Shown: positions 1 to 20,320 of the stretch, piece by piece | How the letters are laid out: each line of letters starts with the position of its first letter | Numbering within the stretch: the stretch's first letter is position 1 | Source of the DNA: Terebella lapidaria | Taxonomy: Eukaryota > Annelida > Polychaeta > Terebellida > Terebellidae | Reading direction: 5' to 3' | DNA: 64,000 nucleotides | Assembly (NCBI GenBank): GCA_949152475.1 | Contig: OX424567.1 | Span: forward strand, 31,149,402 to 31,213,401 | Program-made: the position numbers and the translations under genes | Notes under the pieces: generated by a model | Told to the model about the DNA's origin: nothing | Databases searched by the model: none | The model's input: the letters and a program-made list of their open reading frames with translations, nothing else

Positions 1-100
1 ATCATGATTCGCATATGCCTCGCCTAGTTCTGATATCTTTAGAATAGCCTGTTTTCGGTGAACTTAAATTCGAATCGTATCATCTGCGGTCATTTTAACG

Positions 101-127
101 ACTACCGTAACATACGTTACGGTAATC
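101..127. repeat. Near-perfect palindrome shared by copies A, B and C
   Basis: A 27-28 bp palindrome of the form GATTACCGTAAC around a central GTAC-like core. It recurs at 17362-17389 and 37096-37123 with mostly compensating arm composition. The core word CGTTACGGTAATC also recurs near 17165. It could be a protein-binding or fragile site; no function is shown by the sequence. Confidence 0.6.
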
Positions 128-359
128 GACGGTAATCGGGGTATCTACAGTGACTTGAACAGATGTGTGCAAATCATGTCATTGCGGGCCAAATCAAGCA
201 GACAATCGTGTTTGAACCTAACTTTGTTTAATAAAAGAATAGGTACGGAGTGAAAAGAAACTAAAATGGAGATAATCATGCATTCACAGTAAAGTTATTC
301 TGATGAAGCCAGACACATTAAATAACAGCTTCTGATTGATGCCAATAATACAGCCTCGG

Positions 360-1655
360 GTTAATCTTACAGCCTCTAATTAAGATTAATATATCAATAT
401 TCATTATAAACATTTCCTGCTCCCCTCAAATCTGTAATGTATTTTAGGGCATAAAGATCCAATGTTCATGTGTTGTTCAGCCCAAGGGCCTTTCACACTA
501 TGAAACGTCAGAAACGTCTTGTTAGAAACGTCTTGTGTGTTTTACTCAATAAGTAAGTCATAGTCAATGCAAGGTGTCAGATGACAAATACTAAAACGAG
601 GATACTCATTTATTCTGAATAGAAAAAATATCGTGTGTATACTCGAGCCATAACATTTTATATTCCGACAACAACAGGATCTGTTTGGGGCACGGAATAA
701 TGATTGGCAACCAATGTCCTTCCACAAACCAGATGGGTCCCACTCTTACATGTGTCCCAATTGGCTGAGGAGGAAATATGACCATTGTATTGCGCGAACA
801 CACGTCATTTCTTGTAAACGAAATCCTATTGTTTGTGGAAGTTAACACCACATTTGTTGTAAGAACCATGTGATATGAACATGTCATAGACACATGAATA
901 CATTTTTCTAGAGAGACGCTGGAAGTGATACTCTCACGATTCACGATGTGGCTGTCATACTTTCATAAAAATAAGTTTCAAACAATTTTGTTTACATTGA
1001 TGAGTGGATGATTTTTTTTTCTTCTGCAGAACAGTTCACACCATGATCAATGGTCCATAATCATGATATGTGTCAGGTATTGTTGACCACTTTCCCTGAT
1101 ATGCTTCCCCTATGACTCCTAAATATGATCACTTCAACTTCTCGCTAACAGGTGCAATGTAGAGTCAGTGAGTCACAGAGTACATCCACGTACAATAGCA
1201 TATGTCTGTACTGGTCTCAATACAATACTATTCCAAGAAGAATTATAGTGTTTTTGTCTTGCTGGATGTCAAAGTCAAGTTCACCTGTCAGTAAAACAGG
1301 CTTTTTGGTCATAGTTTTGGATCAATCAGAATAATCGGATCAACTTGAAATTTTGTGTGTTTAATTGGTTGTCATGTCGCAATTTTTCACCAAATTTCAT
1401 AATCATATCTAATAAAAATTGTATCATGATGGTCTAGTCTGAATTATCTTGACAATTTTCATCAAATCAAAAAATTTGTCCAATACAAATTGTAATATTT
1501 TTTTATCTTAAGTTCACGATATTGGGCAGCTGTTAGTTGATATCCGAAATATTGACATTAAATACATGTGTCTATGACATGCAGTTATCGTTCACTGCAT
1601 AAATTGATGCCATACATTTGTTCTGGCACACATGTAGTCTCAGTTCACAGACACT
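360..1655. other. Non-coding stretch of copy A
   Basis: Unique-looking AT-rich sequence conserved in copies B and partly C. Open frames here, such as 606-944 on the minus strand, hold similar lengths in A and C. They show no domain, and the copies are too similar at the DNA level to argue for coding selection. No RNA gene is recognised. Confidence 0.5.
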
Positions 1656-1739
1656 GTGTATATTTTGTTCATTGCCAGATATCGTGACTACTTTTGGGGT
1701 GAAATGAGTCGCCTATGTGATTTTGTTACCCAAGATGTG

Positions 1740-2000
1740 TTAATTTGGTCGGTGAACACACATGTTTCGGATGAACATGTTTCCCGCAAAATATTTTTCT
1801 GCTTCATCTGGCAGTGCATGCCGTCTTCCCAAATGACCCTTGCTATTTTTGTATCGGCCAACTGTATGGTCCTGCAGGGTGGATCTTGGAACATGGTATC
1901 GTCTTGCAGCCTTCCGCACGCTCCAGCCTTCTTTAGTCACAGCACTGCTCGCCTTCCCCCAGTCATCTTGGGTATAAGGATTCTTGGCCTTGTTGGGCAT
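1740..2000 (-). pseudogene. HTH-psq domain fragment of a pogo/Tigger-like transposase (copy A)
   Basis: An ATG-initiated 86-codon frame on the minus strand. Its first ~65 residues look like a psq-type helix-turn-helix: a PYTQDDW start, a WSVRKAARRYHVPRSTLQD recognition-helix segment, then GRRHALPDEAEKYF, equivalent to the GRPxxLTxEEE linker of pogo/Tigger/Jerky proteins. The DDE catalytic domain is absent, and after residue ~68 the frame runs into ordinary flanking sequence. Copy C and the related block near 13550 lack this ~215-bp piece, so it was inserted into the array. It is a transposase 5' fragment rather than a functional gene, though the frame is still open. Confidence 0.6.
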
Positions 2001-3047
2001 GTTATGATAAAACGCCCAATAAATTATTGGTGCAAGATCTATTAAATTTTGTCAAGGACCAGCCCACATTTCGCTCAAGTATTCAACCATGGTTCGGATA
2101 TTGAAATATTTGGAGTAAAATATCCCATAACATAGTAAATCTGTTCGTTGTGAAACTTATTATTATTATATATTACCAAGGAATAAGTGGAAGTATGACA
2201 GAATAAAACATAATAATTATGTACTATAGGCCAATAAATGGGTTGACCTCTAAACATTATGGTTGAGCCCTTGAACATCCACTTTTTTTAATACACATTC
2301 AGGTTTTGCTTGTGTAATATGTTTCTTATGATAAAGGATACATAGGTTGGTCAAACTCGAGTACAAAAATAGTTTTAGATGGTTGATTTCACGTATTGAT
2401 GATGAAAAAATCCACTTCTCAGATAAAATCATCTGCTATGACCACCACTAAAACTTGTCCTACAGTCCGCAAATTACTCACACCCTAAACCGCCCCCTGG
2501 CGATCAAAATGCGCTCCCTGGTGAACAAACAATACACTGCACATTCAAAACATGGCTTTTCTGTAAAACAGTCATTTATTTCCCGATAAATTTGTGTCCT
2601 TGACAAACATATTTTAACATTGGTTTAAACGTACGATCATTAGCATGATTAGGTACCGGGCCGATCAAAGGTACCCTAACGCTAATACAAGAAAACGGCT
2701 CTCAGAAACTGTTGCGCGCGATATATAATTTTTTTGTCATTTTGTTTATATAGAGAGTGATGCCTGAATTATTGATTGACGTGGATTATTAACTCAACCA
2801 GAAATATAATACTTTTTAGACCGAACAGGCCGTAATCATGATCTACGTCAGGTAAATGTTGACTGATTTCCATGATATGCTTCTCCCATGACTCCTAAAT
2901 TTGATCACTTCAACGACTCGCTAATCAGGTGCAATGTATGCTCAGTAAGTCACTGAGTACATCCGCAAATAATAGTGTCTGTACTAAAGGATTGGTTTAC
3001 TATTTTCAGAAGCATTCTAATGTTTTTGTCCTACTCGAAGTTAGATC
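2001..3047. other. Non-coding stretch of copy A before the LINE
   Basis: Sequence shared with 19266-20312. The block 2830-3047 repeats, with divergence, the block 1050-1290 and also 31010-31230; all share words around gcaatgta-gagtcagtgagtcac. This shows an older tandem duplication inside the larger unit. No gene is seen. Confidence 0.6.
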
Positions 3048-3055
3048 TACCTGTG
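3048..3055. repeat. Target-site duplication of the LINE (distal to its 3' end)
   Basis: TACCTGTG here and again at 10035-10042 flank the LINE. Copy B has the word only once at 20313-20320, in otherwise continuous flanking sequence. That confirms it as the 8-bp target-site duplication. Confidence 0.9.
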
Positions 3056-3080
3056 GATAGGATAGGATAGGATAGGATAT
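3056..3080 (-). repeat. Pentamer microsatellite tail of the LINE
   Basis: Five GATAG units (TATCC on the element's sense strand), the last one altered, directly abut the target-site duplication. LINEs of the CR1/L2/Jockey group commonly end in such short repeats instead of poly(A), made by slippage at target-primed reverse transcription. An AATAAA on the sense strand lies at 3089-3084. Confidence 0.85.
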
Positions 3081-4188
3081 TTGTTTATTCAGCAACTTGA
3101 AATGAAATGATATGAAATAATAAGCAATAAGTGAAAAATGATAGTGGAATATACATGTACTGACAAAATATGAGATAAACAGACATTGATACATGTAAGT
3201 TGCTGAAGAGACCATACAAAGCCTGAGGGCTGTATTATGTATGGCCTCAAAAAAAAGAAGAAAAAGATAGATAGATACATGGCAAGAAAACATAAACCAA
3301 GGAAAGAAAATGCTAAACGAAAATACAGGTAATGAGAAATAATAAAACAAAGGAAATAACCTACTAATCAGATGTACATGTAATGAGTAAGAAAGTAAAG
3401 AGAGAAAAAAAAATGAACACTTGAGTGTGACATTTTGGTGGATGGAACTACTGGGAACCCCGACGACCCTAGGTGTCAATTTTATTAACATTATAATGTA
3501 GATATGTAATTGGAAAAGAATGTTTTGTCTTTGGTTGGAAAATTACTGACCCAAGAAAAGTTCAAAAGCCATGGAACAACAATGAAACTATGAATTTATG
3601 ATTCAATTTCAGAATGAATGAACTGGAAATTTAATGAATAACAGTAATGAGGGTTGTAAAAAGATCCACGGACCCAAACCGTACTAGAGATCATTGACAA
3701 TGTAAGCCCATGGATATAAACATATATTTGTTTCATAATGTCCTTGAAAAAGATAAAGATATAGATAAAGATATATTTTCCACACACATAAAAAATGGTG
3801 AATAGGCCATCAGATTAGTGTGCCCTGACCCATGTTACAAACACATATACAAAAGGTTCTGTGATGATTTAGTGATAAACGATACATGTATATGTATGTA
3901 TACGTTATGATATTAGCCAAGTCACGATCAGAGATCATAATGCTTGAAACAAGCCCACGAATCCCACCCGCCCTAGAGACCCTTGAAAATGTAATGCCCA
4001 TTTATATACAATCCCAAGATATATACCAGTATATATATCCTGAAATTGTATATCAATTTAGTGTGATCTGATCTGGATATAGGACATCCGTTGTAGAATG
4101 ATTTGTAATAATCAATGTGTGTATGTGCATACATACGTTATGATACATATTAGCCCAGTCATCAGAAGAGATGATATTGGTTGTAGGT
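3081..4188 (-). other. LINE 3' untranslated region with stem-loop and internal duplication
   Basis: No coding potential is credible here. A conserved-looking stem-loop lies at 3212-3244 (CCATAC/GTATGG outer stem, GCC/GGC inner stem). This is the sort of 3' structure that some LINE reverse transcriptases recognise. Further into the UTR, 3660-3920 and 3950-4160 are diverged copies of one ~250-290-bp unit, both ending with acgttatgata-tattagcc. Confidence 0.6.
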
Positions 4189-7100
4189 TCACATACAGTC
4201 TTTGCAGGTAGGATTTGAGCACCATACAATGTTTTTATAATTATATAGCATTGCGTGTCTGAGATATGTTTTAATTTGATTTATTGACATGGAGTTATGG
4301 TCTGGCAAAAGTGATTGCCATTTATTCCAGATGTGAGGAAAATTGAAAATAGGAAACCTGCCAGCAAAGTCACTTGTGGCACGTCGGACATAAAGCTGCT
4401 CTGATTGTCTGGTGATATGATGTGATTGAATTTCATGATTGACAACAAACATGCCATTGAAAGATGCAGGTAGTTTATTTTTAAGATATTTCGCCATAAA
4501 TAGGGAAATTTCACATTCATACTGATCTGAGAGTTTGAGAATATTTAGTTTTTTTAATAATGGCTCAGTATGACTATTATAACTAGCCCCACCTATAACT
4601 CTAATTGCTCGTTTTTGCAATATTGAAATGGAATTTAAAAGAGATGTGGAGGCATTACCCCATGCTAATAGGCCATAAGTAAGATATGGATGTATTAGAG
4701 AAAAGTATAGGGTTCTCAGGCACTTCTGTGGAAGAAAGTTTCTTACTTGCCTGATAATGAATAGGGCACGAGATATTTTAGTTTTGATATGTTTAATGTG
4801 GTCTCCCCAAGAGAGATGATCATCTATTTTGACACCTAAAAATTTAGTACTAGTTTCTATTTGGTCTTTACCAACTCTATCAAGGACTGTGCCATTTATA
4901 GATATATTATTGTGTGATAAATTGATATTGGCTCTGGGTGATCTGATGTGGACATATTTGGTTTTTTTGGCATTTAATGATAATCTATTTGCACAAAACC
5001 AATTATATAGATTATTAACTTCCTTGTTTGCATTGAGATACAAATTGTCTATACTACTATCAGAAATACAAAGTGAAGTGTCATCTGCAAATGAGAGGAT
5101 TTTTCTTTGTGAGACAGAGTGACCTATATCATTTACATAGATGAGATACAGTAGAGGGCCCAGTATTGATCCTTGTGGAACACCATATTCCATAGGTAAT
5201 GTGTCAGAAACTGAATCATCAAAAGCCACATATTGGGTACGCATAGTCAAATAGTTTGTTAACCAGTCTTTAATTTTGCCTCTTAGTCCATAATATTCAA
5301 TTTTGGTTAGAAGTATATCTTTGTTTATCACATCAAAGGCCGTAGAAAGATCACACATTATGGTTATGGTAGATTGCTTGGGTGTCACATTATTTGCTTC
5401 CGCGCAGTCATTAAGTAAGTGCAAAATGGGGTGGATTGTACTGTGACTGGATCTGAAACCATACTGGTGATTATAGAAGAGATTGTTTTTTTGGAAGTAA
5501 TCTGTGATTTTGTTGAAAACAATTTTCTCAAAAATTTTGGAAAATGAAGGTAATAAGCTAATTGGTCTATAGTTATTTAGAATTGTGTTGTCACCGGATT
5601 TATAAATTGGAACCACTTTAGCAATTTTAAGGGTATTGGGGACTATGCCTGTCAGTAAGGATCTATTAATTATGTGTGTCAGTGCTATATGGATGTAATG
5701 AATGCTTTGCTTTATTATTTTCATTGGGATAAGGTCATGACCAAAACTAGTTTTGGGTTTGAGTTTAGATACTACATTCAGTACTTCTAGTGGTGTGACA
5801 GGTTCAATAAACATGCTTGATTTATATGGTGTTTTGAGATAGTCCTTATAGGATGTGTTTGTAACTGGTATGCTGTGACTTGTCTTAACACCAATTTCGG
5901 CAAAAAATCTATTAAACGCTTGAGCAATATTCATTTTGTCTGATACTAGGCTGTTATCGATATTGAAGAATTGTGGCAAAATGGGTTTTGTTTTATTCGG
6001 ATTGATTGCATTTGTAAGTATTTTCCATGTGGCTTTGATGTCATTTTGTGATTCATATAATTTAGATTCAAAATAGTTCTGTTTCATAATTCTCTTCACT
6101 TGGTTATATTTATTCTGAAATCTTTTATAAGTGTTTATGTTGAGTTCAGTTGGATTTTTTAATTTTAATTTGTATAATTTATTTTTCTTTCGCATAGATG
6201 TCAAAAGACCAGAAGTTACCCAGGGTTCTTTCTTGATATAATTCCTGTTGCATTTATATGTTTTAATAGGGAAAGCAATTTCAAAAGCATCAAAGTATTT
6301 GGAGTAGAAGGTACCATAAGCTTCTTCGGGGCAGTCAATATTGGAAATGCCAGTAAAATCAATTTGTTCCAGTAGTGTATTGAATGTGTTGATGTTTGTG
6401 TCAGAAAATGTTCGTTTTTGATAGTTTTTTACCTTTAATTGTTTTTGAGTGTTATTAAAAGACAGGAATACCCCGAAATGATCAGCAACGTCATTTATAA
6501 TGATACCACTTTGGCAGTTGTTTGACTGGATATTCGTATAAATATGATCAATTAAGGTTGCAGAGTTGGGAGTTACTCTTGTTGGTTTAAAAATTTTTGG
6601 AACAAAAGTACGTGATACTATGTTGTCAAAATAATTATTCACGCTTAATAGAGAATTGTACTTAAGTAGATCTATGTTCATGTCTCCAAGAATGACTGAT
6701 TTTTTGTTTTCATTATTAATAATATCCATAGTGTCATACATGGTCTGTGAAAAGATATCAATATCTGCTCTAGGGAGAGTGTTTGGTCTATAGATGACAC
6801 CGATGATGCAGTTAGATTTGAATGTTGAACAATTGTCATGTTTACCGAGAGATACTTCCACAAATAGTGATTCATACACATGAGGGATCATGACAGTAAG
6901 GTCATCTCTAATTGTGAAATGTAGATCATCCCGGATAAATAACCCTTCCCCTCCCCTGCCATCATCTGATCTATTACGGGTAATAAGTTTGTGGTACCCA
7001 GTGAGGGAAACTCTACTATCTCTGGAACAATCAAAGAGTTCACTGATACCTATAAAGTCAAATTGGAAAGTTTGGCATGTTATTTCCTGCATCAGATCCC

Positions 7101-7380
7101 TAAAATGCTCCCAATTGGCTGATAAGCCTCTACAATTTATGTGAAAGAACGAAGTACCATTTCCTTTATTTTTGAGGATATTCAAAGCCGTGGATGGTTC
7201 ATAATATTTGCAATCATTCATACTAATAGGTGTGTCTGTTTGATCTTCACACCATTCATCAGAAGCAGTGTAAACATGTTTCAAATCATAATGTTGGTCA
7301 GTACCAACCATATCCAGTGTTATACTAGCCATTGTTAAAGGGTAAAGAAGAGTCGTCCATGTCCCAGCAATTCCACCCAT
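4189..7380 (-). CDS. LINE ORF2: APE-type endonuclease and reverse transcriptase
   Basis: About 1063 residues. The N-terminal APE endonuclease (~75-330) shows FFHINCRGLSAN, GISE, VIYRPN, LGDMNIDLL, LIDHIYTN and a final ADHFG where SDH is usual. The reverse transcriptase (~590-860) shows VVPIYKSGD, NYRPISLLP, HQYGFRSSHST, CDLSTAFD (first catalytic Asp), GVPQGSILGPLLY and the FADD catalytic pair near residue 765. LSLNAKKTKY and FLGVKIDDHLSWGDHI follow. The C-terminal region has the HPYLTYGLLAWG and LQKRAIRVI segments typical of Jockey/CR1 relatives. There is no RNase H domain. The start is uncertain: ATG at 7380 or 7332 both fit. It would nick target DNA and copy the element RNA in the nucleus. 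All frames are intact. Confidence 0.95.
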   Translation of the reverse strand: MGGIAGTWTTLLYPLTMASITLDMVGTDQHYDLKHVYTASDEWCEDQTDTPISMNDCKYYEPSTALNILKNKGNGTSFFHINCRGLSANWEHFRDLMQEITCQTFQFDFIGISELFDCSRDSRVSLTGYHKLITRNRSDDGRGGEGLFIRDDLHFTIRDDLTVMIPHVYESLFVEVSLGKHDNCSTFKSNCIIGVIYRPNTLPRADIDIFSQTMYDTMDIINNENKKSVILGDMNIDLLKYNSLLSVNNYFDNIVSRTFVPKIFKPTRVTPNSATLIDHIYTNIQSNNCQSGIIINDVADHFGVFLSFNNTQKQLKVKNYQKRTFSDTNINTFNTLLEQIDFTGISNIDCPEEAYGTFYSKYFDAFEIAFPIKTYKCNRNYIKKEPWVTSGLLTSMRKKNKLYKLKLKNPTELNINTYKRFQNKYNQVKRIMKQNYFESKLYESQNDIKATWKILTNAINPNKTKPILPQFFNIDNSLVSDKMNIAQAFNRFFAEIGVKTSHSIPVTNTSYKDYLKTPYKSSMFIEPVTPLEVLNVVSKLKPKTSFGHDLIPMKIIKQSIHYIHIALTHIINRSLLTGIVPNTLKIAKVVPIYKSGDNTILNNYRPISLLPSFSKIFEKIVFNKITDYFQKNNLFYNHQYGFRSSHSTIHPILHLLNDCAEANNVTPKQSTITIMCDLSTAFDVINKDILLTKIEYYGLRGKIKDWLTNYLTMRTQYVAFDDSVSDTLPMEYGVPQGSILGPLLYLIYVNDIGHSVSQRKILSFADDTSLCISDSSIDNLYLNANKEVNNLYNWFCANRLSLNAKKTKYVHIRSPRANINLSHNNISINGTVLDRVGKDQIETSTKFLGVKIDDHLSWGDHIKHIKTKISRALFIIRQVRNFLPQKCLRTLYFSLIHPYLTYGLLAWGNASTSLLNSISILQKRAIRVIGGASYNSHTEPLLKKLNILKLSDQYECEISLFMAKYLKNKLPASFNGMFVVNHEIQSHHITRQSEQLYVRRATSDFAGRFPIFNFPHIWNKWQSLLPDHNSMSINQIKTYLRHAMLYNYKNIVWCSNPTCKDCM

Positions 7381-7383
7381 CAA

Positions 7384-8629
7384 AAATACAGCATAATATT
7401 TTCCTCATAAGCATAGTCACTGTACATTCAAACAACTTGAGCAAATCTCATAGTAGTGATGGTGGAGGAATCCCAAATATTTACAAATATTTACAAATGT
7501 TTAATATCTCGATCATATGTAATAATGCACGATATTCACGCATATTTCTGATTTAACGTCTATATGTATCAGGCTCAGTAAAACAGCAAAACAAAACAAC
7601 AATTGTCCAGTCATATTTTTATATTACATGTTACTAGCTGGGTCATGTTTACTATCGCGATACCCAATCATAGGACTGGTTAGCCTAACTGAAAAATTAT
7701 TTGATTCATTGTTCATTATATGTTAGTTTACTGGTAGTGAAAATTGCATTTAGATCATGTTTCCAATGAGGCAACCATGTAATTGCACATCGCGATATAA
7801 AGGCCACAGTTAGAAAAGTGATACTCGATCATAGAAATGGTCCACCTAACTCAAAAATTTCTTTTTTTTTCTTATCATTATTTTTTTTTTACACATTTAG
7901 GTTATATAAGTGAGGCAACCATTCAATTGCACATCGCGATATGATTCCTACGCTACAAGATATTCAGCCACATATTTTGAGACATATCTAAATTTAAGGC
8001 TATATATTCATTGTGTACGTGTATAAATAGAAATCCACAGGTACAAACGCGATACCCAATCATGATGTATTTATGGTGCGCCTAACTCAAGTTTATTGGT
8101 TTTATTTACCGAACGTTTAAGTAATAGATGTGTATGAGTGAGGCGACCATTGAATTGCACATCGCGTTGGCAAAAGATAGTTGACACTATGGACATGGAT
8201 TGTTCAGCCAGTGTCGGTAACAATTGTCAATGTGACCGTCATATGGCAATGGACGATAATATAGGAAACTTGACATTTCGAACTGAACTGGTTGATTGAG
8301 AATAGTTTTGAGCTTGAAAATGATCTAGTGTGTCATATAAAGTGGTGCTTACGTGATCTGTGTTCCAATCCAATCTTAGAGATTGGTATTGTGTATAATT
8401 TAATCATTTTCACTGGTAAATAAACCTGTGTTTACAATCGCTGTCGGATAAATGACCTTGACATTCAGGTGTGTAAGAACTACGGAGGCAAAAACGAAGC
8501 AGTGCAAGACAAGCATACTATGGAATTCCGCAGGCGACGTACTACATACTACATACCACATACGCCGGTAAAACAAGCAATACACCTTTCATGGGCATAG
8601 AATAGGGAGCCTACACATAGCCTAATTGC
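7384..8629 (-). other. Inter-ORF spacer of the LINE with three related ~125-bp repeats
   Basis: An unusually long (1.25-kb) gap between ORF1 and ORF2. Three diverged repeat units lie at about 7655-7798, 7818-7942 and 8048-8169. On the plus strand each starts with a cgcgata-cccaatcat-like word and ends in gtgaggcaaccattgaattgcacatcgcg. The spacing between units is irregular. No frame bridges the ORFs, so ORF2 needs its own translation start, a separate transcript or an internal entry mechanism. Which one cannot be told from sequence. Confidence 0.7.
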
Positions 8630-9781
8630 TCATGATTGAAGTTCATTTCGAATTGACTCCAGGAGTTTGCCGGTCGTGTTTTTGCCTTTCCAAGTGGATG
8701 GATCGAGGGTGTCCTCATCATCCAGAGTCGAGCCACAACCCCAGGTACGGTCCAGTGAGGCCTCTCCAATAGTTTTGTCCCCAGTCGAGAGTAAGAAGTC
8801 CTTCAAGTCAGGCGTAGCAGAGAATTTTGCTCGCATCGCTTCTTCCATGATTTTGGGACCAGTGGACAGCCATCGGTAGGGGGTTTTGATCGAGTCGCCG
8901 ATCCGCTTTGCCACGCCGGGGTCAGTGCTCAGCAGGATGTCAATGGCAGATTGATCATCTTTGGCTGCCAAAGCCTTGTGGTGTTGGTAGTAATGCTCAA
9001 CTGAAGGATATTCCATTGTGTCGGATGCCACTTTGCACTTGTAAAAGTTACTCAGAGGAGAGAGTCTACCTAAGAACACGACTGATTTGTCACTGTATTT
9101 GGTGTGTACGGAGGAAGTGTCGAAGGGAACTTTGTGAACGTCGTCTACTGTGTATGAGGTGCTGTCGATAATCAGTTTGTCGGCCTTCAGACTTGCTTGC
9201 ATTTTGAGTTCTTTGGCCTTACGGAGCACAGGGAGCAAGATGCGTCTGCGGGACACTACTTCAGTGGGGTATTGTTGATTTATGTAAATGTGAGGTTTGT
9301 GATTTTTTAGTTTGCCGCCATTGCTCAGTACGAGCTGAACATCTTGTTTGTTGTTAAATCGAGCCACAATGTTTCTTGGGCGATTTAGGACCTTTCGTAG
9401 GCGATGACAGGCGACAATGGTGGGAGGTGACTCAATCCCCAGGACATCAACGAAGATATTGTTTAAGGTTGTTTTTAAGTCCTCCACTGATTCGTTCTCT
9501 TTGTCGGGTACACCTGATAGTATTATGTTGCAGTTCATAGAACGGCATTCTAGCTGGGTTACCCTGTCAGAGATTGCCCTGTTCTCGTTTTGCAGTTTCA
9601 GTAGGAGCAAATCATGTTTTTTCGACGTTTTTTCCAGTTCATTTGATGTGTCTGTCAGTTTGTTTACCGTGGTCAGAAGATTATCACTGGCCTGTTTTAG
9701 CTCGTCAAACTTTTTCATTAAAGTGTCCTGGAAGTTCATGTGCCAAGCTGGGGCCTTGTCATCAAATTGTATATTAGCCAT
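8630..9781 (-). CDS. LINE ORF1: coiled-coil / RRM-like protein fused to a C-terminal NADAR (YbiA-like) domain
   Basis: 383 residues from an ATG at 9781. Residues ~15-80 are heptad-rich and likely coiled coil. Residues ~83-205 resemble the L1-ORF1-type RRM/C-terminal RNA-binding region: NIILSGVPD, then a VACHRLRK stretch and an IVARFNNKQDV strand. Residues ~233-381 match the NADAR family: LSPLSNFYKCK, YPSVEHYYQHHKA, AKRIGDSI, MEEAMRAKF, LSTGDKTIGEAS, a DRTWGCG motif, and WKGKNTTGKLLESIRNEL. Known NADAR/YbiA proteins act on ADP-ribose-linked or riboflavin-pathway N-glycosides. A role in an ORF1 ribonucleoprotein is inference, for example removing ADP-ribose marks from nucleic acid. It lies upstream of ORF2 in the same element and is unbroken. 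Confidence 0.92.
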   Translation of the reverse strand: MANIQFDDKAPAWHMNFQDTLMKKFDELKQASDNLLTTVNKLTDTSNELEKTSKKHDLLLLKLQNENRAISDRVTQLECRSMNCNIILSGVPDKENESVEDLKTTLNNIFVDVLGIESPPTIVACHRLRKVLNRPRNIVARFNNKQDVQLVLSNGGKLKNHKPHIYINQQYPTEVVSRRRILLPVLRKAKELKMQASLKADKLIIDSTSYTVDDVHKVPFDTSSVHTKYSDKSVVFLGRLSPLSNFYKCKVASDTMEYPSVEHYYQHHKALAAKDDQSAIDILLSTDPGVAKRIGDSIKTPYRWLSTGPKIMEEAMRAKFSATPDLKDFLLSTGDKTIGEASLDRTWGCGSTLDDEDTLDPSTWKGKNTTGKLLESIRNELQS

Positions 9782-10034
9782 AATGAATACACGTCTGGGT
9801 CACCGTAGTTAAATGTCCGTCACGCGTGATTGCACAGCACTGATCGATGGTTGTAGATTGATATTTCTAGTGATTAGTCGATCAAGATTGTCTTTTATAA
9901 ACCACCAATAGGTTCATGCAAGTTATTTCATGCAATCAAACCGTTCGATTCCATCTGTATTTATCCAAGATTGAAATAAATCAAGATTTATGCTCAGTTG
10001 TTTATCTTGGTTACGCCATGACCGGAAGTGTGAT
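9782..10034 (-). promoter_or_regulatory. LINE 5' leader / presumed internal promoter
   Basis: A 253-bp segment between the element's 5' end and the ORF1 ATG. Its sense-strand start, ATCACACTTCCGG, carries an ETS-like CCGGAAGT core on the complementary strand close to the 5' end. LINEs carry internal promoters here; the exact initiator is not identifiable by eye. Confidence 0.5.
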
Positions 10035-10161
10035 TACCTGTGTAATGAAGCTTTGTGAAATCGATCGAACCTTCCCCAGTTGCTCCTCTGCCAATCGGTA
10101 GGTACACCTTGCTTTAGAACAAGATTTTGTTTTCTTATTATATATTTCCCCTTTTCTAAGC

Positions 10162-10206
10162 ATCAACATAGGTCATTCCAGAACTAGTTGAATGACCTAT
10201 GTTGAT
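10162..10206. repeat. Perfect 17-bp inverted repeat unique to copy A
   Basis: ATCAACATAGGTCATTC at 10162-10178 is followed after 11 bases by its exact reverse complement at 10190-10206. Copy B has only the left arm, then ~100 bp of different sequence absent from A. The word gatcatcatgatct then occurs twice in A (10204-10240). This looks like a fold-back, templated replacement in copy A. Confidence 0.85.
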
Positions 10207-10378
10207 CATCATGATCTAGTTGATCATCATGATCTCGATGATAAATACGCCGAATCTGCTATCAGTATGCAGCAAGAACTGTTTACATGTTATTTTGTTT
10301 TTGGAATCCATGACGGGTGCCACACGTGATTCAGCTAATGCCCAGTCTTCCCAGAACACCTAATTTCACCCCTTATGG

Positions 10379-10600
10379 TTAATGTGGGGGGTCATGAAGG
10401 TCCACACTATTTTCCGAGTTTGCCTGACACTGGACTTTGAGATTGGATAACGGACTTGGTTTTGTTTGCTCAGAATACTCTGCACTTGGGTATTCTATCG
10501 TATCTGGCGTGTTTTGTTCAACGTCTTTCCACAATCGTAATGCTGTAATTTGAACGACCCTACCTTCAGGTGAAACAATATGCCAATTTACATTACCCAA
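10379..10600 (-). CDS. Small conserved open frame, weakly CUB-like, function unknown (copy A)
   Basis: A 73-codon minus-strand frame, open in both A and B (20731-20952) with one residue changed. The segment NWHIVSPEGRVVQITALRLW resembles the WxIxSPxGxxVxLxF core of CUB domains, but the cysteines are missing and the rest does not fit. It opens at TTG and has no clear splice acceptor. The 3' part (EQTKPSPLSNL) has a decayed relative at 61700-61750 on the plus strand, where stops interrupt it. It could be an exon relic or chance. Confidence 0.25.
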   Translation of the reverse strand: MGNVNWHIVSPEGRVVQITALRLWKDVEQNTPDTIEYPSAEYSEQTKPSPLSNLKVQCQANSENSVDLHDPPH

Positions 10601-11520
10601 TTAAAAAACGGAAACTTTCACATCAATACTGTCCAATTAATTATTTGAAACAGATATTTGTCGGCATGTAATTGAAATCTCGAACTAAGATCTGAAGCCG
10701 GTATAATGTCTACAACTGATTGCCACAGCTAACACATTTCTATTCATGAAAAAAGTCCCAAATAAAACTACCGTTTTCTATGTAAACTTTATTTTCAGAT
10801 TCCCAAACACGCAAAAGCGTATATCAATTCAACAAATCATAGAAAAAGTGTGATAACAAAGTAATCAGATACGAGATAGTATTGAATGATTTACATAAGA
10901 GTGAGATGATCGCATGAAATGATTTATGGACGAACTATAACTTGGTGGATGTTATATGGAAGAATCAAAATCAATTGCATCAGAAGAAAGGCCAGTTCAC
11001 CCATTTAGTAGAATATAAGAGTCAGTGATTGTGTTGCCGATGTTGGCAAAAATATTTCCAGTGCATCCCTTAATGAACGGCAACATAGCGTGAAATGATA
11101 TAGAACTCTCTTGCAGTGGCCGCAGCGACACGATGGTGTGTCGATGACGTGTACATTCGTACATACCGGTAAATCGTGATTTAACAAGCTGCACCATATT
11201 CTCAGTCGGGATAAAATAATATTTACATGGTGTGGTCCCACATAAAACATAGGTCATTTGACAGTGTGTCTACTTGCTTCAGTTTTGCTTTAAAATATTG
11301 ATGAAGTCTGCATTTCTCTGCACCAATGATAATCAATTCCATTCTCTGATGGTATTGTGGATAAATGAAATACGTGAACATCGCAGCCGAGCAATGCTGG
11401 AGCTGATATCACCAGCTGATTTTAAATTATACTAAGATCACTCCCGGGCTGTAGATTCGGAGAGAGTAAGCCAGTTAACATCTCTCAGTAATCTTAATGT
11501 ATCATAACGAGCATTTGCAC
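10601..11520. other. Non-coding stretch of copy A
   Basis: Shared nearly base-for-base with 20953-21870. Overlapping minus-strand frames near 10997-11257 are open in both copies. They lack any domain, and the copies are too similar to judge selection. I see no RNA gene. Confidence 0.4.
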
Positions 11521-11696
11521 CGGCCACAACTCATATTTTTTTAGCCTCTCAAGTTTGGCTAAATCTGCATAACAACGTCGGCATATTCTATCGTTGGTTG
11601 AATCATCCAGATGTGGAAGGGTTCTAATGATTCCCTGTCAAACCGAAATTTGAAGGAATTGAAAAGGGTAAAATAAGTTTGGCTTTATCATATATA

Positions 11697-11960
11697 TTAC
11701 ATGTGGGTAGACCAAGATAAATCCCGTGTAAGAATAACCCGAAGATGCTTAATAATAATATGCTTTTTCACTTCTGCGTGAATTGAAAAATCCTTATCCT
11801 TTTCGGCTAAAGTGACCGAGGGTGTTGATTTGATGTGCGTTTGTTGGATATCAGCAAGGATGGGGATCTGGAAACCAACCATTTCTTGTACTCGCAATAC
11901 TGAAATTAATAAAGGCCCAAGCACAGAGCCTTGTGGAACACAAGCACGTATGTTGCAAAG
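11697..11960 (-). pseudogene. Decayed LINE reverse transcriptase fragment (copy A)
   Basis: On the minus strand, upstream sequence encodes CVPQGSVLGPLLI, the conserved RT block before the catalytic FADD. The frame then continues after an internal deletion into HLRVILTRDLSWSTHM, the C-terminal LGVxxDxxLSWxxHI block. Everything between, including the FADD motif, is missing. Copy B keeps only the downstream half (about 22020-22130), because the Penelope-like element begins there. This is an old Jockey/CR1-like remnant, not the same family copy as the full-length LINE at 3056. Confidence 0.7.
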
Positions 11961-13337
11961 GATTAACAGAACTACTCTGCTTGGTTGATGTGTTATTGGG
12001 ATCAGTGTTTGTGACGTTATATTCGATTTGTCCCTGGAATTGTGTACACTGGACTTACCACACGAATTGCAGATAATAATTTATCCATAGGATATGTTGA
12101 TATAAAGTCACTCGTCTATATACAATATTACAGCTGGGGTATGTTTTTGAGATATTTTGCTTCTACATAAGTACATGTACACCTGGAAAAAAATCTATAC
12201 TCTGATTTTTTAAACTTGTTTACACCGTTTTTGCCATGAGTTTAGTCAAGTAACTTCGAGCGAACTATTCAACTGAATATTGCATGTCAGGGGTATAAAC
12301 GGCAATTAATTTACACAAACCTGGCTTCCGGAACGCTATCTGTTTCTTTAAAAACACAAAAGTTTCATTTAAGGGATGATTTTATTTTATTTATATGTTC
12401 TTTAGCCAGGGTAGCCTGGTCAGTGTGCAAAGAAAAAACACTGGTCTCCCCCAGGGCCCTGGATGCTCGAGCCATGGGCGCCGACATATCTTGTTTGTTT
12501 CTCGACCACCGATGACGGAATCCAAATGGTCAAGTTCAAATTTGGCATAATAAGCCCCCAAACCCTCTACATGTCTATGTGCTGACTTTTTCATGGAGCT
12601 TTCATGCCAAACTATCGACGCCCGTTTTGGCAGGTAAACCTTCAGACACCTACTCCAAATGAGGATTTTCTTCGTCTTTGACATAAAATCTGTCGAATTG
12701 ATGGCAAACTTCCAATATTCCACAGATGTATAATGCATAAATCGATGTGTTAGGATTGAGAAAATAACGTAAGATCCTCAAATTATCCAAAAACGTCCAA
12801 AATGGCGGAGCCGATGGAAATTGACGTTCCCAGAATGCAAAGCAAATTTTACCGCAATGACGCATATTATGGAACACACAATTTTCTGTGCAACAATACG
12901 TGCATGCATACATCATCTTGCGTGTGACATTCTCTGGCGCTATGATGAAGTAAACACGATGATACGTCTGCGACGCCACGGCTAAATTTACCGTAATTTG
13001 ACGTATTGTATCACATGACAATTAAGGTGTTCCATGCAGGGATGCGAATTTTTATTTTAAACTGGCCTTTCAATTCGCCCAGTAGGCATATGTATCATGA
13101 TATCAGATGCAGATATTTCTCATGGTTTTCAATATTTTTTTTTATTTTTTTTTTTTAAATGAAATACCATTTTAGTAGGCGTAGATCTATCTGTTACATT
13201 GAGTTCAAAATAAATTTTTACTTATTAGGAATATGAATGAAGTAGGCCTATGTTTTTCATCATAATATACTGTCGTGGTGCTGATGATGTGCTCGAGCTC
13301 TAATGTCGTCCCCCGCAGTTAGCTGCATTTTCTTGTT
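11961..13337. other. Copy A-specific segment without recognised genes
   Basis: There is no counterpart in copy B, where this place is taken by the Penelope-like units and a 450-bp block. Open frames at 12391-13021 on the minus strand are short and domain-free. The sequence around 12430-12500 is GC-richer, and poly(T) occurs at 13135-13156. I cannot assign a function. Confidence 0.4.
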
Positions 13338-14329
13338 GTTTAAAAGTTATTATTCGAACTATTGATATTAAATACATAAGTCTGTATGCCGCTCTCACTG
13401 CATAAATTGACACCATATATTTGTCCTAGCAGTCATATGGCTCAGTGCACACAAATATTACATCCAGTGCCTCATAGCCTGGTTACTTGGGGAGTGATGG
13501 GAGTCGCCGTTGTTTTGTTTAGTGAACAAACTGATTTCGGGTCGAAGCGTTTCCACAAAATATTTGCTCACCTGGACGAACATTCAGTGAGTGGTACCAG
13601 TAATTATTGGTGCAAAAGAAAGTCAGTCATCTTTCAAACGCACAAACAACCGTTGTTTTGCTTATAGGTAAACTAAGATAACAATGTTTTATAAGCAAAA
13701 CGGTTGAATTTATAAGTAGTCTGGCCTATTCTGGCCCATCTAAACCAGGCGTTTGTGAGGATTTATTGGGAGACCAATTGGGACGAATTGCCAAAATGTT
13801 TACTATGAGAAAGTTATGATGTTAAAAGTGGGCTGTTAAATATACATGTGTATGTATCCACACCATCCATGATCATGTACAATATCAACGGATGAAAAAA
13901 AACATACTACTATATACGTGAAATATCTTTGAATCGTAATTGACTTGAAATGAACTCTACTGTGTTCTAATAATGAAAAAGTTTATCAATCACGCAAAAG
14001 TTAATTAACAATTTGCAATTATAATGAATTATATCAAACTTCATAATTCACAACATCTTATACTTGTATTATCGTAGATTCTTTTTTAATACACATCTTT
14101 TATACTGAAAATTTTCATAATTTAGTATAAAAATTGCAGGGCGCAACAATTGTGCAAACCCTTTTGTCACGAACAGTGTTATGTTTTATTACGCATGCGC
14201 AAATATTGTTAGCTTGTTTTTGTAATCCTCATCGTTGAATGACTCACATAGATGCATTTGCCACACAAAAAAAGAAGTTACGAAAACAACACTGTGTCGT
14301 GTTTAATTTAATTGCAAGCCTTTTGCATT

Positions 14330-14566
14330 ATTAAGGTCTCTTGTGTCGTTGCTAATTGTAACCTGATAGGATTTATATGGGTTTCCCCTCTTGTACACCT
14401 GACAATTGCGACCTTCTTTGGAGAAAATTACAAGATAAACATTGAAAACATGACCATATCTATGTTGAACTATTTCCTACAACATCCCGTAGAACTGGTG
14501 ATTATCTTACTGAACAAAATCAATGGAAGTTTCATGGAAATAAAAGTTACCAACTATACGTTGTGA
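14330..14566 (+). CDS. Short open frame kept in three duplicated copies, unknown function (copy A)
   Basis: A frame of about 80 residues starting FCIIKVSCVVANCN. The related frame in B lies at 32466-32702, and a more diverged one in C at 42452-42787 retains VVANCN followed by a hydrophobic FxWV stretch. About 180 bases upstream, all three keep a possible acceptor ending TGCAG followed by gcaa-aattgtg. A gcatgcgcaaat word also lies between the acceptor and the frame. There is no recognisable domain. The A and B tails differ by frameshift. It may be an exon relic of a gene the array once carried. Confidence 0.25.
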   Translation: MKVSCVVANCNLIGFIWVSPLVHLTIATFFGENYKINIENMTISMLNYFLQHPVELVIILLNKINGSFMEIKVTNYTL

Positions 14567-16317
14567 CAGCATCCGTCTCCGTGACACCTTTTTACAAATC
14601 AGATTCATATTCAAATTGTAACGCAAAAGTGCTTTACATGCAAAATATCACGACATTATAGCTTCATTAAGTTTTATGTGCCGTGGTAAAATTCATCTCT
14701 GGTTCTGTAGTCAATGAGGAAGATCAGATGTATTCTTGTCATTTATTGCCCCCTCAACCTCCCCCCCCCCTCAACAACAACAAAAAACCCGCAACTTCAG
14801 AACAACACATCAATTTATTAGGAAGTAAATATTGATGGCTATATCTTCTATAGGCAAGGGTTTGCATTTATATTGTAGGTGGGGGAAATTTTGTTGGAAT
14901 TCATTTTGGAACTTTATTCCTCAACTGAATATTCTTCTGGAACCTTTTTGAAAAAGTACATCTGCTGAAGACGACGTACACGTAGTCACTCCGGTTTTCA
15001 GATTCAGACTGATCACGTTCTCCAGAATTTCATGCTTTTATACCCTCCCGAGCTGCGTGACGTCACTGGTCACATGACTTTTGAGCTTTTCTTGAAAATT
15101 TCTTACAGTTTGATGCTCAACATTCACGTTTGGATTGGTAAAATAAACCCATAAGTAATGCCCTGGCATGTCCTCCCCGTGCATTTATACCTCGAAACGG
15201 AAAGAGATTGTAATGAGCTTGCAGACTGAGGCTTGAGATTGTAGTTTTGTGGAATGGCACTCGCCATGTGTGTGTCGTTCTGATGCTAGTTCTATGTGTT
15301 AGATATCGATGTGGCTCCTAAGTGGATTCATCGCTGTTATGTCTTGTATAACTATAGGTTGTGGCTTCTGTAGATGCTGCCAGAGAGTTTTCTTTGTGTA
15401 CTCTTGTATGTTTTCTTCTTGCTTAAAACACCACTTCACTGCTCGTCAAATTTAAAATAATCCTACGTGTAAGCAAGTCATGAAATTCTAAAATGATCAT
15501 AAAGTGCAACCGTTATCAGTAAAATATTTCATTCAAATATCTATCAGACAAATACCTAAGCATAACAATATATCCTTGTTTTGAATAATCTTGATTAGGT
15601 ACTGACTTCAGTCATAAGTTATCATTAGTTCGTGTCTTGATGACAGCATCTCATTCCTGTCGGATACACCCTGGTGTGTTTTTGTGTAACGATGTTTGTG
15701 TGCTAGTAACCACTACACACCGATAATAATGGACATCTGTCTAGACATTCATAATTATGTGAGAACAGGATATTGGATAGTAATTTGCGAATGCCGAGAC
15801 GGCGAAGGCAGCAACAATGATACTCAAGAACCATGTTATCACGTACATAAGAGGGCATGAGTTCGAGTCCTTTGCCAAGATTGCTGTTCCATCGTACAAT
15901 CTACAGATCAGTGCATGACACAAATATTATAGTTGTGAAAATGGTGGCTATATTTCCAAGCAGGTATAGATGAGCAATCTAAGGAAAACATGCACGAGTA
16001 CCTGTATAACCATCGAAACCCTTGGTACATGCCATGATGGGTTACCACCGCCTAACAGCTCTACTCGTGTAAACTGATCGAGGAAAGCAATAGGAATTGT
16101 ATAGTGTAATAGGAACAAATCCTAATTATATCCTTGCGATGATTAATAACTAACCTGCATGATGTCACGACATGACAGGGCGACAACACTAATCCAGTGT
16201 CATTTTCATGTTTTCCATCTTCGTGATGTCTTTGGAAATGTGCATCACATTACGTGATTGTAAGGATAATAGAACACATTGCGCTCGCCTTGCCTTCATC
16301 TTCAGCCTGAAGAATAA
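14567..16317. other. Non-coding stretch of copy A
   Basis: AT-rich sequence shared with 32703-34560 at moderate divergence, including a C-rich tract at 14752-14771. I see no frame, RNA gene or terminal repeat that would mark a feature. Confidence 0.4.
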
Positions 16318-16503
16318 ATGTTGCTGGATTTTATTGATATAGCTTCCAATTGTCACTCGGAAATGAACACTTACTATTGGTTCCTGTTACCTAGAGCACT
16401 TCTGTCAACGAAACATCATTCAGATAGCATTAGTCTTCCCTTTCTTGATATTGAACAAACAACATATATTTATTTTGGAATCAACAAGCAGACCTTAACA
16501 TAG
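16318..16503 (+). CDS. Short ATG-started frame after a possible splice acceptor (copy A)
   Basis: An ATG frame beginning MLLDFIDIASNC. Copy B (34561-34803) has MLLDFIEIASKC and stays similar for ~38 residues before diverging. Just upstream both copies have a pyrimidine-rich run ending in CAG (cttcatcttcag in A, ctttttcttccag in B), then cctgaagaataa before the ATG. This could be a first coding exon, or chance conservation in a duplicated region. No domain is recognised. Confidence 0.25.
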   Translation: MLLDFIDIASNCHSEMNTYYWFLLPRALLSTKHHSDSISLPFLDIEQTTYIYFGINKQTLT

Positions 16504-16647
16504 ACCAATCAGCACAATCCCACTGGGAGGGGATTATTACCACGCTTCTGGTTCTACGCATTCGCTATGCATGTCGCAGGGCTCAGTGGCAGCTCAGTGT
16601 TACGTCGGTAATTCAATATCGTTTGACTAAATATCAAAGGCAAATAC

Positions 16648-17262: not shown

Positions 17263-17389
17263 ATCATGATTCGCATATGCCTCGCCTAGTTCTGATATCT
17301 TTAGAATAGCCTGTTTTCGGTGAACTTAAATTCGAATCGTATCATCTGCGGTCATTTTAACGACTATCGTAACGTACGTTGCGGTAATC

Positions 17390-18920
17390 GACGGTAATCG
17401 GGGTATCTACAGTGACTTGAACAGATGTGTGCAAATCATGTCATTGCGGGCCAAATCAAGCAGACAATCGTGTTTGAACCTAACTTTGTTTAATAAAAGA
17501 ATAGGTATGGAGTGAAAAGAAACTAAAATGGAGATAGTCATGCAGTCACAGTAAAGTTATTCTGATGAAGCCAGACACATTAAATAACAGCTTCTGATTG
17601 ATGCCAATAATACAGCCTCGGGTTAATCTTACAGCCTCTAATTAAGATTAATATATCGATATTCATTATAAACATTTCCTGCTCCCCTCAAATCTGTAAT
17701 GTATTTTAGGGCATGAAGATCCAATGTTCATGTGTTGTTCAGCCCCAGGGCCTTTCACACTATGAAACGTCAGAAACGTCTTGTTAGAAACGTCTTGTGT
17801 GTTTTACTCAATAAGTAAGTCATAGTCAATGCAAGGTGTCAGATGACAAATACTAAAACGAGGATACTCATTTATTCTGAATAGAAAAAATATCGTGTGT
17901 ATACTCGAGCCATAACATTTTATATTCCGACAACAACAGGATCTGTTTGGGGCACGGAATACTGATTGGCAACCAATGTCCTTCAACAAACCAGATTGGT
18001 CCCACTCTTATATGTGTCCCAATTGGCTGAGTAGGAAATATGACCATTGTAGTGTGCGAACACACGTCATTTCTTGGGAACGTAATCATATTTTTTTGTG
18101 GAAGTTAACACCACATTTGTTGTAAGAACCATGTGATATGAACATGTCATAGACACATGAATAAATTTTTCTAGAGAGACGCTGGAAGTGATACTCTCAC
18201 GATTCACGTTGTAGCTGTCATACTTTCATAAAAATAAGTTTCATGACAGCTTCATAATTTTGTTTACTTTTATGAGTGAATGATTTTTTTTCCCTGCAGA
18301 ACAGTTCACACCATGATCAATGGTCCATAATCATGATATGTGTCAGGTATTGTTGACCACTTTCCCTGATATGCTTCCCCTATGACTCCTAAATATGATC
18401 ACTTCAACTTCTCGCTAACAGGTGCAATGTAGAGTCAGTGAGTCACAGAGTACATCCACGTACAATAGCATATGTCTGTACTGGTCTCAATACATTACTA
18501 TCCCAAGAAGAATTATAGTGTTTTTGTCTTGCTGGATGTCAAAGTTCACCTGTCAGTAAAACAGGCTTTTTGGTCATAGTTTTGGATCAATCAGAATAAT
18601 CGGATGAACTTGAAATTTTGTGTGTTTAATTGGCTGTCATGTCGCAATTTTTCACCAAATTTCATAATCATATCAAATAAAAATTGTATCATGATGGTCT
18701 AGTCTGAATTATCTTGACAATTTTCATCAAATCAAAAAATTTGTCCAATACAAATTGTAATATTTTTTTATCTTAAGTTCGCGATATTGGGCAGCTGTTA
18801 GTTGATATCCGAAATATTGACATTAAATACATGTGTCTATGACATGCAGTTATCGTTCACTGCATAAATTGATGCCATACATTTGTTCTGGCACACATGT
18901 AGTCTCAGTTCACAGACACT
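17390..18920. other. Non-coding stretch of copy B
   Basis: Matches 128-1655 of copy A with a few substitutions and small indels. No gene is recognised. Confidence 0.5.
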
Positions 18921-19004
18921 GTGTATATTTTGTTCATTGCCAGATATCGTGACTACTTTTGGGGTGAAATGAGTCGCCTCTGTGATTTTGTTACCCAAGA
19001 TGTG

Positions 19005-19265
19005 TTAATTTGGTCGGTGAACACACATGTTTCGGATGAACATGTTTCCCGCAAAATATTTTTCTGCTTCATCTGGCAGTGCATGCCGTCTTCCCAAATG
19101 ACCCTTGCTATTTTTGTATCGGCCAACTGTATGGTCCTGCAGGGTGGATCTTGGAACATGGTATCGTCTTGCAGCCTTCCGCACGCTCCAGCCTTCTTCA
19201 GTCACAGCACTGCTCGCCTTCCCCCAGTCATCTTGGGTATAAGGATTCTTGGCCTTGTTGGGCAT
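19005..19265 (-). pseudogene. HTH-psq domain fragment of a pogo/Tigger-like transposase (copy B)
   Basis: The copy B partner of 1740-2000, identical in length and with one residue changed (Lys to Glu before GWSVRKA). It carries the same psq helix-turn-helix segment and the same missing catalytic domain. Its open state in both copies is expected from their recent duplication and does not by itself show function. Confidence 0.6.
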
Positions 19266-20312
19266 GTTATGATAAAACGCCCAATAAATTATTGGTGCAA
19301 GATCTATTAAATTTTGTCAAGGACCAGCCCACATTTCGCTCAAGTATTCAACCATGGTTCGGATATTGAAATATTTGGAGTAAAATATCCCATAACATAG
19401 TAAATCTGTTAGTTGTGAAACTTATTATTATTATATATTACCAAGGAATAAGTGGAAGTATGACAGAATAAAACATAATAATTATGTACTATAGGCCAAT
19501 AAATGGGTTGACCTCTAAACATTATGGTTGAGCCCTTGAACATCCACTTTTTTTAATACACATTCAGGTTTTGCTTGTGTAATATGTTTCTTATGATAAA
19601 GGATACATAGGTTGGTCAAACTCGAGTACAAAAATAGTTTTAGATGGTTGATTTCACGTATTGATGATGAAAAAATCCACTTCTCAGATAAAATCATCTG
19701 CTATGACCACCACTAAAACTTGTCCTACAGTCCGCAAATTACTCACACCCTAAACCGCCCCCTGGCGATCAAAATGCGCTCCCTGGTGAACAAACAATAC
19801 ACTGCACATTCAAAACATGGCTTTTCTGTAAAACAGTCATTTATTTCCCGATAAATTTGTTTCCTTGACAAACATATTTTAACATTGATTTAAACGTACG
19901 ATCATTAGCATGATTAGGTACCGGGCCGATCAAAGGTACCCTAACGCTAATACAAGAAAACGGCTCTCAGAAACTGTTGCGCGCGATATATAATTTTTTT
20001 GTCATTTTGTTTATATAGAGAGTGATGCCTGAATCTTTGATTGACGTGGATTATTAACTCAACCAGAAATATAATACTTTTTAGACCGAACAGGCCGTAA
20101 TCATGATCTACGTCAGGTAAATGTTGACTGATTTCCATGATATGCTTCTCCCATGACTCCTAAATTTGATCACTTCAACGACTCGCTAATCAGGTGCAAT
20201 GTATGCTCAGTAAGTCACTGAGTACATCCGCAAATAATAGTGTCTGTACTAAAGGATTGGTTTACTATTTTCAGAAGCATTCTAATGTTTTTGTCCTACT
20301 CGAAGTTAGATC

Positions 20313-20320
20313 TACCTGTG
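20313..20320. repeat. Empty target site of the LINE in copy B
   Basis: A single TACCTGTG in the continuous sequence gaagttagatc-TACCTGTG-taatgaagc. The left half equals 3035-3055 and the right half equals 10035-10055 of copy A. It is the unoccupied allele-equivalent of the LINE insertion. Confidence 0.92.

Follow-up and report, generated by a model that had tools for sequence, protein, structure and literature searches.

A YbiA-type NADAR domain at the end of an L1-type ORF1 protein in a LINE insertion of Terebella lapidaria

The window analyzed here, the whole 64-kb stretch of Terebella lapidaria DNA, holds a LINE insertion in which an ORF1 with a C-terminal NADAR domain lies together with an ORF2 for a reverse transcriptase (RT). 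The LINE thus has two ORFs, and the product of the first is an RNA-packaging ORF1p of the L1 type whose CTD is followed by a YbiA-type NADAR domain. A first-pass annotation of the sequence had proposed a LINE ORF1 with a full NADAR domain, and the ORF1p fold, the RT-encoding ORF2 in the same insertion and a strong Pfam NADAR match bear this out. Positions below are those of the window.

The LINE insertion and its layout

The LINE spans 3056..10034 on the minus strand (6,979 bp, running from its 5′ end at 10034 to its 3′ end at 3056), limits that were set by an empty site in a duplicate of its flanks. Self-comparison of the window showed that positions 1-3055 are duplicated at 17263-20320 (98.0% identity), 10025-10193 at 20302-20471 (98.2%), and 10224-11778 at 20576-22130 (98.7%), with precisely 3056-10034 missing from the duplicate. 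Compared base by base, the duplicate runs uninterrupted through a single TACCTGTG (20313..20320; flanks 98-99% identical), the unoccupied target site, and in the first copy TACCTGTG flanks 3056-10034 on both sides as a target-site duplication, at 3048..3055 beside the 3′ end of the LINE and at 10035..10042 beside its 5′ end (none of the three sites has an assigned strand). On the plus strand of the window this 8-mer occurs at exactly these three sites (3048, 10035, and 20313). The empty site, the 8-bp target-site duplication and the terminal (TATCC)n tail at 3056-3079 thus place ORF1-NADAR and ORF2 within one LINE insertion, and the features of LINE membership found here comprise an RT ORF in the same element, the target-site duplication and the 3′ tail. 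Because the LINE is missing from the duplicate and both of its ORFs are open, the data suggest a recent insertion, with the reservation that the flanks may appear younger than they are if the duplicates have undergone gene conversion, a further part of the duplication being just 86% identical. No second copy of ORF1 or ORF2 was found in the window, where additional tblastn matches were at chance level only (E 0.19 or worse).

The local duplication as a whole spans 1-16518 and 17263-34747, with only 86% identity between 13333-16518 and 31446-34747. The LINE lies in the first copy and a Penelope-like pair in the second, as if each duplicate had received a different insertion. The two Penelope-like copies (22138-26151 and 26992-31004) point in the same direction and are 99.3% identical across 4 kb; the first encodes an RT and a GIY-YIG domain, and the RT frame of the second is broken into two ORFs. 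A likely LTR retrotransposon lies at 45414-52555 between direct repeats (45414-46259 and 51725-52555, 97.2%), with a borderline aspartic protease, a sub-threshold zinc knuckle and a Gag-like region with repeated peptides; no RT was noticed among its ORFs of at least 150 aa. Scanned against Rfam with gathering scores as thresholds, the window gave no match.

Along the minus strand, the LINE consists of a 253-bp 5′ region (9782..10034, from the insertion border to the ORF1 start codon), ORF1 (8633..9781), a long inter-ORF spacer of 1.2 kb (7405..8629), ORF2 (4189..7404; 1071 open codons plus stop), and a 1.1-kb 3′ region (3056..4188) in which an ~80-bp unit is present in two imperfect copies (3869-4183, 75-78%). 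The spacer contains no sense-strand ORF longer than 62 aa and carries, at 7642-8169, three diverged repeats of ~130-150 bp, each with ATTGCACATCGCG at its end, which are possibly promoter monomers or a nested short repeat. The RT of ORF2 (residues 604-860) matched PF00078 (RVT_1) at 1e-29, and its endonuclease-like region (residues ~115-291) matched Exo_endo_phos weakly, at 17.0 bits under a cut-off of 24.5. ORF2 also matched LINE-1 ORF2p (8sxt) at 2.1e-14, the L1 ORF2p alignment beginning only at residue 242. At the position of human L1 GTRQGCPLSPLLF (GTRQGCPLSP), its RT has the motif GVPQGSILGPLLY (GVPQGSILGP). The latter is usual in CR1/L2/Jockey-like LINEs and the former in L1/Tx1, and judged by this motif the ORF2 RT does not look L1/Tx1-like.

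The two ORFs also differ sharply in composition: GC3 is 0.52 in ORF1 vs. 0.31 in ORF2, and their codon-usage distance (0.151) exceeds that of every one of 35 overlapping ORF2 blocks from the rest of ORF2 (maximum 0.131). Together with the RT type, this difference suggests either that an L1/Tx1-like element was the donor of the LINE's ORF1, or that insertion joined two separate RNAs. In the latter case ORF1-NADAR and ORF2 would stem from two elements, united in this one copy by an RT template jump, an explanation that we regard as possible but doubtful; the compositional break, the 1.2-kb spacer with its repeats and the pairing of an L1-type ORF1 with a GVPQGSILGP-type RT all fit it. However, a jump from the usual bicistronic RNA would be expected to leave a trace of an L1/Tx1-type ORF2 on the 3′ side of ORF1, and no such remnant was visible there (the spacer has no sense-strand ORF longer than 62 aa), which favors acquisition of ORF1 over the joining of two RNAs; in addition, both ORFs are open and the ends of the insertion are clean.

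Domains and active site of the ORF1 protein

ORF1 encodes 383 aa (minus strand, stop codon at 8630-8632) arranged as coiled coil, RRM, CTD, and NADAR. In the AlphaFold model of the monomer, residues 12-81 (9539..9748) form one long N-terminal helix, presumed to be the coiled coil, followed by the RRM (residues ~83-171; 9269..9535) and the CTD (residues ~172-215; 9137..9268), the latter reached by the LINE-1 ORF1p profile alignment and spanned by the structure alignment. Residues 38-242 of the model align with the LINE-1 ORF1p trimer structure 2yko, and both the RRM and the CTD of L1 ORF1p are present. Profile comparison with LINE ORF1 proteins, as proposed in the first-pass annotation, gave a divided answer: the N-terminal half had no convincing match in Pfam, but a profile built from ORF1 and 29 relatives reached human LINE-1 ORF1p at 4.2e-15.

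The NADAR domain takes up residues ~234-383 (8633..9082; 241-382 by Pfam, 221-383 by structure). Two NADAR profiles matched above their cut-offs, in agreement with the initial reading: PF08719 at 113.8 bits (cut-off 35.1), over profile positions 11-163 of 163, and TIGR02464 (riboflavin intermediate N-glycosidase) at 108.3 (cut-off 73.7). NCBIfam NF053876 (NADAR family anti-phage protein) was not reached, at 28.5 bits vs. a cut-off of 240. The predicted structure confirmed the NADAR fold over residues 221-383; the solved structures related to it by sequence are 8bau and 2b3w, and many predicted structures of viral NADARs match it as well. PADLOC matched the NADAR region with model PDC-M42C (3.9e-23) and residues 94-144 weakly with GajA (0.0063), and in PHROGs two families of unknown function matched, both over the NADAR region.

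Residues were mapped by pairwise alignment to the Phytophthora nicotianae NADAR 8bau, and the catalytic residues sought in the domain were found. Glu262 (8996..8998) corresponds to P. nicotianae E43 and to E88 of the Escherichia coli C7 NADAR, Lys269 (8975..8977) to K50 and C7 K95, the essential lysine, and Glu340 (8762..8764) to E125, the YbiA-type glutamate (all three codons on the minus strand). ORF1 therefore has the YbiA-type set of catalytic Glu and Lys plus a last-strand Glu, rather than Asp or His. Four further ADP-ribose-site residues of P. nicotianae (K75, W89, D130, and W133) are matched by K292, W304, D344, and W347, and the contacts R79, Y84, D86, and R93 had no identical counterpart in the pairwise alignment. 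The roles of the P. nicotianae residues are described in passages of PMC11543638, which also report that C7 K95 is essential for efficient de-ADP-ribosylation of guanine although K95R retains hydrolysis in vitro, and that the conserved glutamate of the superfamily (E173 in C7) is dispensable in C7, which uses D171 instead. In proteins of the YbiA type, this catalytic position is occupied by a glutamate (PMC11125620).

Relatives, conservation and phylogeny

A search with the ORF1 protein returned 31 matches, 29 of which were taken as ORF1-NADAR proteins or pieces of them and two (P0030 and P0031) as other NADARs. Ten N-terminal halves used as queries gave 49 matches: 24 contained PF08719 (three already found in the first search), four broke off inside the NADAR region or shortly ahead of it (P0035, P0044, P0045, and P0047; P0044 less clearly), and 21 were without NADAR, among which P0079 is too short to tell. 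Rescanning ten of these 25 truncated or NADAR-less matches with Pfam revealed no NADAR domain. The combined set of 51 rows, whole proteins or pieces (the window ORF1, 29, and 21), shows a recurrent fusion and excludes a one-off read-through, the outcome that the first-pass annotation had named as refuting. The accompanying suggestion that such fusions are the source of scattered YbiA-like labels in invertebrate genomes held in part: a source name came with five of the 31 matches, and four of the five were labeled "ribA/ribD-fused uncharacterized protein," but none named an invertebrate.

Several NADAR-less ORF1s share a common end point after the CTD (P0054, P0057, P0059, P0066, and P0069), so that the NADAR domain is, judging from these proteins, an optional tail of a wider ORF1 family. 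An L1-type ORF1 without NADAR (P0061) that came from the same search as NADAR-bearing ORF1s is named from the coral Oculina patagonica. Clusters of 9-14 sequences stand behind P0038, P0039, P0041, P0043, P0051, and P0055, which is consistent with repeats and is no proof of copy number.

Over the 51 rows, Glu262 and Asn245 are kept in all 51, Glu340 in all 47 with a letter at that position (four gaps), and Trp304 in 47 of 49; D344 is found in 36 of 45 and W347 in 35 of 44. Position 269 is K in 41 rows, R in three and M, Q or N in seven, one of which (P0055) resembles a degraded copy of P0051, itself with K. Among 27 hand-picked comparison NADARs (bacterial or cellular, plasmid, phage, and others), the positions of E262 and K269 held E and K in all 27, and that of E340 held E in 26. 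Set against the invariant lysine of the comparison proteins, the seven M/Q/N rows suggest that NADAR catalysis may be dispensable in some lineages.

Across 771 pairs of relatives, mean identity in the NADAR domain and in the RRM was 0.35 vs. 0.29 for the 306 pairs with 25-35% RRM+CTD identity and 0.37 vs. 0.38 for the 305 pairs at 35-50%, and in 19 closer pairs NADAR fell slightly under RRM (0.53 vs. 0.57, n = 16; 0.82 vs. 0.86, n = 3). The NADAR domain is thus conserved about as much as the RRM, which we read as probable constraint.

For the NADAR tree we used 42 of the 51 ORF1 rows, nine having been excluded at the outset because they were short, truncated or degraded, and the 27 comparison rows: 15 of 80 bacterial loci, L001, P0030-P0034, and loci drawn from 4 of 623 phage records and 2 of 67 plasmid records. 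The best tree requires two changes for the ORF1 rows, and a tree that keeps them in one clade is worse by 5.65 log units (p-AU 0.388). The RRM+CTD tree comprised 46 of the 51 NADAR rows (five were too short), the four rows that break off in or shortly ahead of NADAR, and 17 of the 21 NADAR-less rows (P0048, P0073, P0078, and P0079 left out); here the best tree has four changes for the NADAR-less rows, and with all NADAR rows in a single clade the tree is worse by 17.4 log units (p-AU 0.102). A single gain of NADAR is thus rejected by neither tree and proven by neither; the deep branches of both trees are weak, and NADAR may have been lost in places or gained more than once. Three groups appear, starred, in both trees (P0016/P0065/P0049/P0053, P0002/P0003, and P0008/P0013), and P0005/P0006/P0018 also group in both but are starred in the RRM+CTD tree only; in these shared groups the two halves of ORF1 have travelled together, and elsewhere the trees differ or lack resolution.

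From the NADAR tree, whose sets include no named animal cellular NADAR, the domain's source cannot be read. Viral contigs, scanned with ORF2, the window ORF1 and two pairs of its relatives, yielded no ORF1-NADAR locus, the sole relative being L001, a separate 212-aa NADAR ORF on an IMG/VR contig. A genome contig scan with P0012 found nothing and one with P0034 found 559 bacterial relatives, of which 80 were kept and 15 used for comparison. The NADAR part alone as query returned four proteins, too few for a study of origin.

Possible roles of the NADAR domain and known systems

We propose, and give this an even chance of being right, that the NADAR domain is an eraser acting in cis that removes ADP-ribose from guanosines of the LINE's own RNP or cDNA. 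If ORF1p coats the LINE's own RNA as in L1, this coating would place NADAR on the LINE RNA and on the cDNA made by target-primed reverse transcription, where it could hydrolyze ADP-ribose put on guanosines by host ADP-ribosyltransferases. The template would then stay readable and the RNP would be neither marked nor inactivated, making NADAR a self-protection or counter-defence module in cis. The NADAR fold, the intact active-site residues, the recurrent fusion and the ORF2 in the same insertion are the observations behind this proposal, from which we infer catalysis, substrate and a benefit to retrotransposition. Against the proposal stand the M, Q or N at the lysine position in some relatives and the lack of identical counterparts to R79, Y84, D86, and R93 of the P. 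nicotianae NADAR; nor do we know of a host guanosine ADP-ribosyltransferase that is aimed at retrotransposons.

Published work bears on several of these elements. Of the hydrolase families tested, NADARs alone remove ADP-ribose from guanosines in RNA (PMC11833690), and they do so on DNA too (PMC11543638; PMC11125620). Activity that ADP-ribosylates DNA at N2 of guanine has been reported in six edible clams (PMC11209040), so hosts with the matching chemistry exist. For NADARs in RNA-virus polyproteins, the proposed substrate is ADP-ribose that the host has placed on macromolecules (PMC9503650). Human L1 is restricted by PARP13/ZAP, with loss of L1 RNA and RNP (PMC4441479); since the relevant part of that report does not name ADP-ribosylation as the means, the finding goes no further than showing LINE RNPs to be a possible target of a PARP-family protein.

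The lysine losses leave room for a second role, unlikely in our view, in which NADAR reads ADP-ribose and does not need to cleave it: bound to ADP-ribosylated DNA, RNA or protein, it would anchor the RNP at chromatin that is damaged or carries PARP marks, the place at which reverse transcription is primed. The glutamates that hold the distal ribose (E262 and E340) are fixed and 10 of the 51 rows have another residue in place of the essential lysine, but as C7 K95R still hydrolyzes in vitro, only the seven M/Q/N rows speak clearly for a reader. Against it, 41 rows, the window ORF1 included, keep the lysine, a pattern that is not decisive because this residue also coordinates phosphate and its presence fits a reader too. 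We consider it quite unlikely that the substrates of the domain are instead small ADP-ribose derivatives or N-glycosides of another kind (immune signals resembling cyclic ADP-ribose, or intermediates of riboflavin), with ORF1p merely its means of production. The TIGR02464 match would agree with such substrates, as would the argument, made in a passage of PMC9503650, that phage NADARs act mostly on low-molecular-weight derivatives; however, the same source contends that the NADARs of eukaryotic RNA viruses work on macromolecules, and fusion to an RNA-coating, RNA-binding protein points to a nucleic-acid substrate. Very unlikely, to our judgement, is a passive tail that adds an oligomerization or RNA-binding surface and leaves the ADP-ribose pocket unused: loss of the lysine in some lineages and the NADAR-less related ORF1s indicate that NADAR is not essential to every such element, but N245, E262, E340, and W304 in the pocket region are near-fixed despite a domain identity of mostly ~35%. 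We give next to no credence to a domesticated, single-copy host gene outside mobile elements, an idea that the unusually long spacer, the different RT motif and the lack of a further copy in the window had raised and that was dropped, since ORF1 lies with ORF2 inside an insertion with a target-site duplication and is absent from the duplicate locus, which refutes it for this copy unless the copy is chimeric.

A wider proposal, which we advance tentatively and hold to be doubtful, is that LINEs have their own ADP-ribose eraser on ORF1p, which would point to an unrecognized, ADP-ribosylation-based restriction of retrotransposons in invertebrates; in this proposal the ORF1-NADAR block would also have moved between LINE groups with different RTs. 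The role of eukaryotic and animal NADARs is described as an open question in PMC11125620. Should many of them be ORF1 tails of retrotransposons, their role would have to be sought in transposition, and gene labels such as "ribA/ribD-fused" or YbiA-like would need checking. ORF1p, so far seen chiefly as a coat for RNA, here has an enzyme-like domain added to it, and the open ORFs and mapped empty site offer a concrete construct for work on whether ADP-ribosylation of nucleic acids restricts retrotransposons and whether the LINE replies with an eraser.

Human LINE-1 ORF1p (2yko, 2ykp) ends after its CTD and, unlike the window ORF1, is not known to carry a NADAR domain. The YbiA-type NADARs of P. 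nicotianae (8bau) and E. coli (YbiA, 2b3w) lack an ORF1p fusion, and the 8bau contacts R79, Y84, D86, and R93 are not kept in the window ORF1. NADARs of animal RNA viruses and phages likewise belong to mobile parasites and are read as acting on ADP-ribose in virus-host conflict, but in the account given in PMC9503650 they occur in polyproteins or are mostly free-standing, not as a LINE ORF1p fusion.

Among the closest known systems are other retrotransposons, and the novelty that had been attached to the ORF1-NADAR fusion was overstated. In the Pacific oyster, several families of Tx1 LINEs (Repbase) were reported in 2025 to have NADAR domains in ORF1, together with NADAR in the Pol of Ectocarpus Gypsy elements, in a passage of PMC12477816 whose authors suggest that the oyster domain processes RNA intermediates. 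Ectocarpus Gypsy likewise represents a retrotransposon with an acquired NADAR, but it is an LTR element with the domain in Pol; its NADAR is said there to have almost only bacterial matches outside Ectocarpus and the oyster matches are called divergent, which suggests a separate gain. Among the papers listed by full-text searches, largely outside preprints and subscription papers, we recognized no other account of a NADAR/YbiA-retrotransposon fusion, and 14 L1-Tx1 oyster entries in RepBase are listed in PMC10294476, where the passage concerned makes no mention of NADAR. The fusions are present in many relatives and have had only passing mention in print. Like the oyster Tx1 ORF1s, the protein described here combines a LINE ORF1 with a YbiA-family NADAR domain; unlike in Tx1, the RT beside it is, by its motif, not L1/Tx1-like in appearance. 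The oyster account is a single passage without a comparison to L1 ORF1p, active-site counts or insertion anatomy (PMC12477816, in the part concerned), and relative to that published fusion the empty site inside the same window is new.
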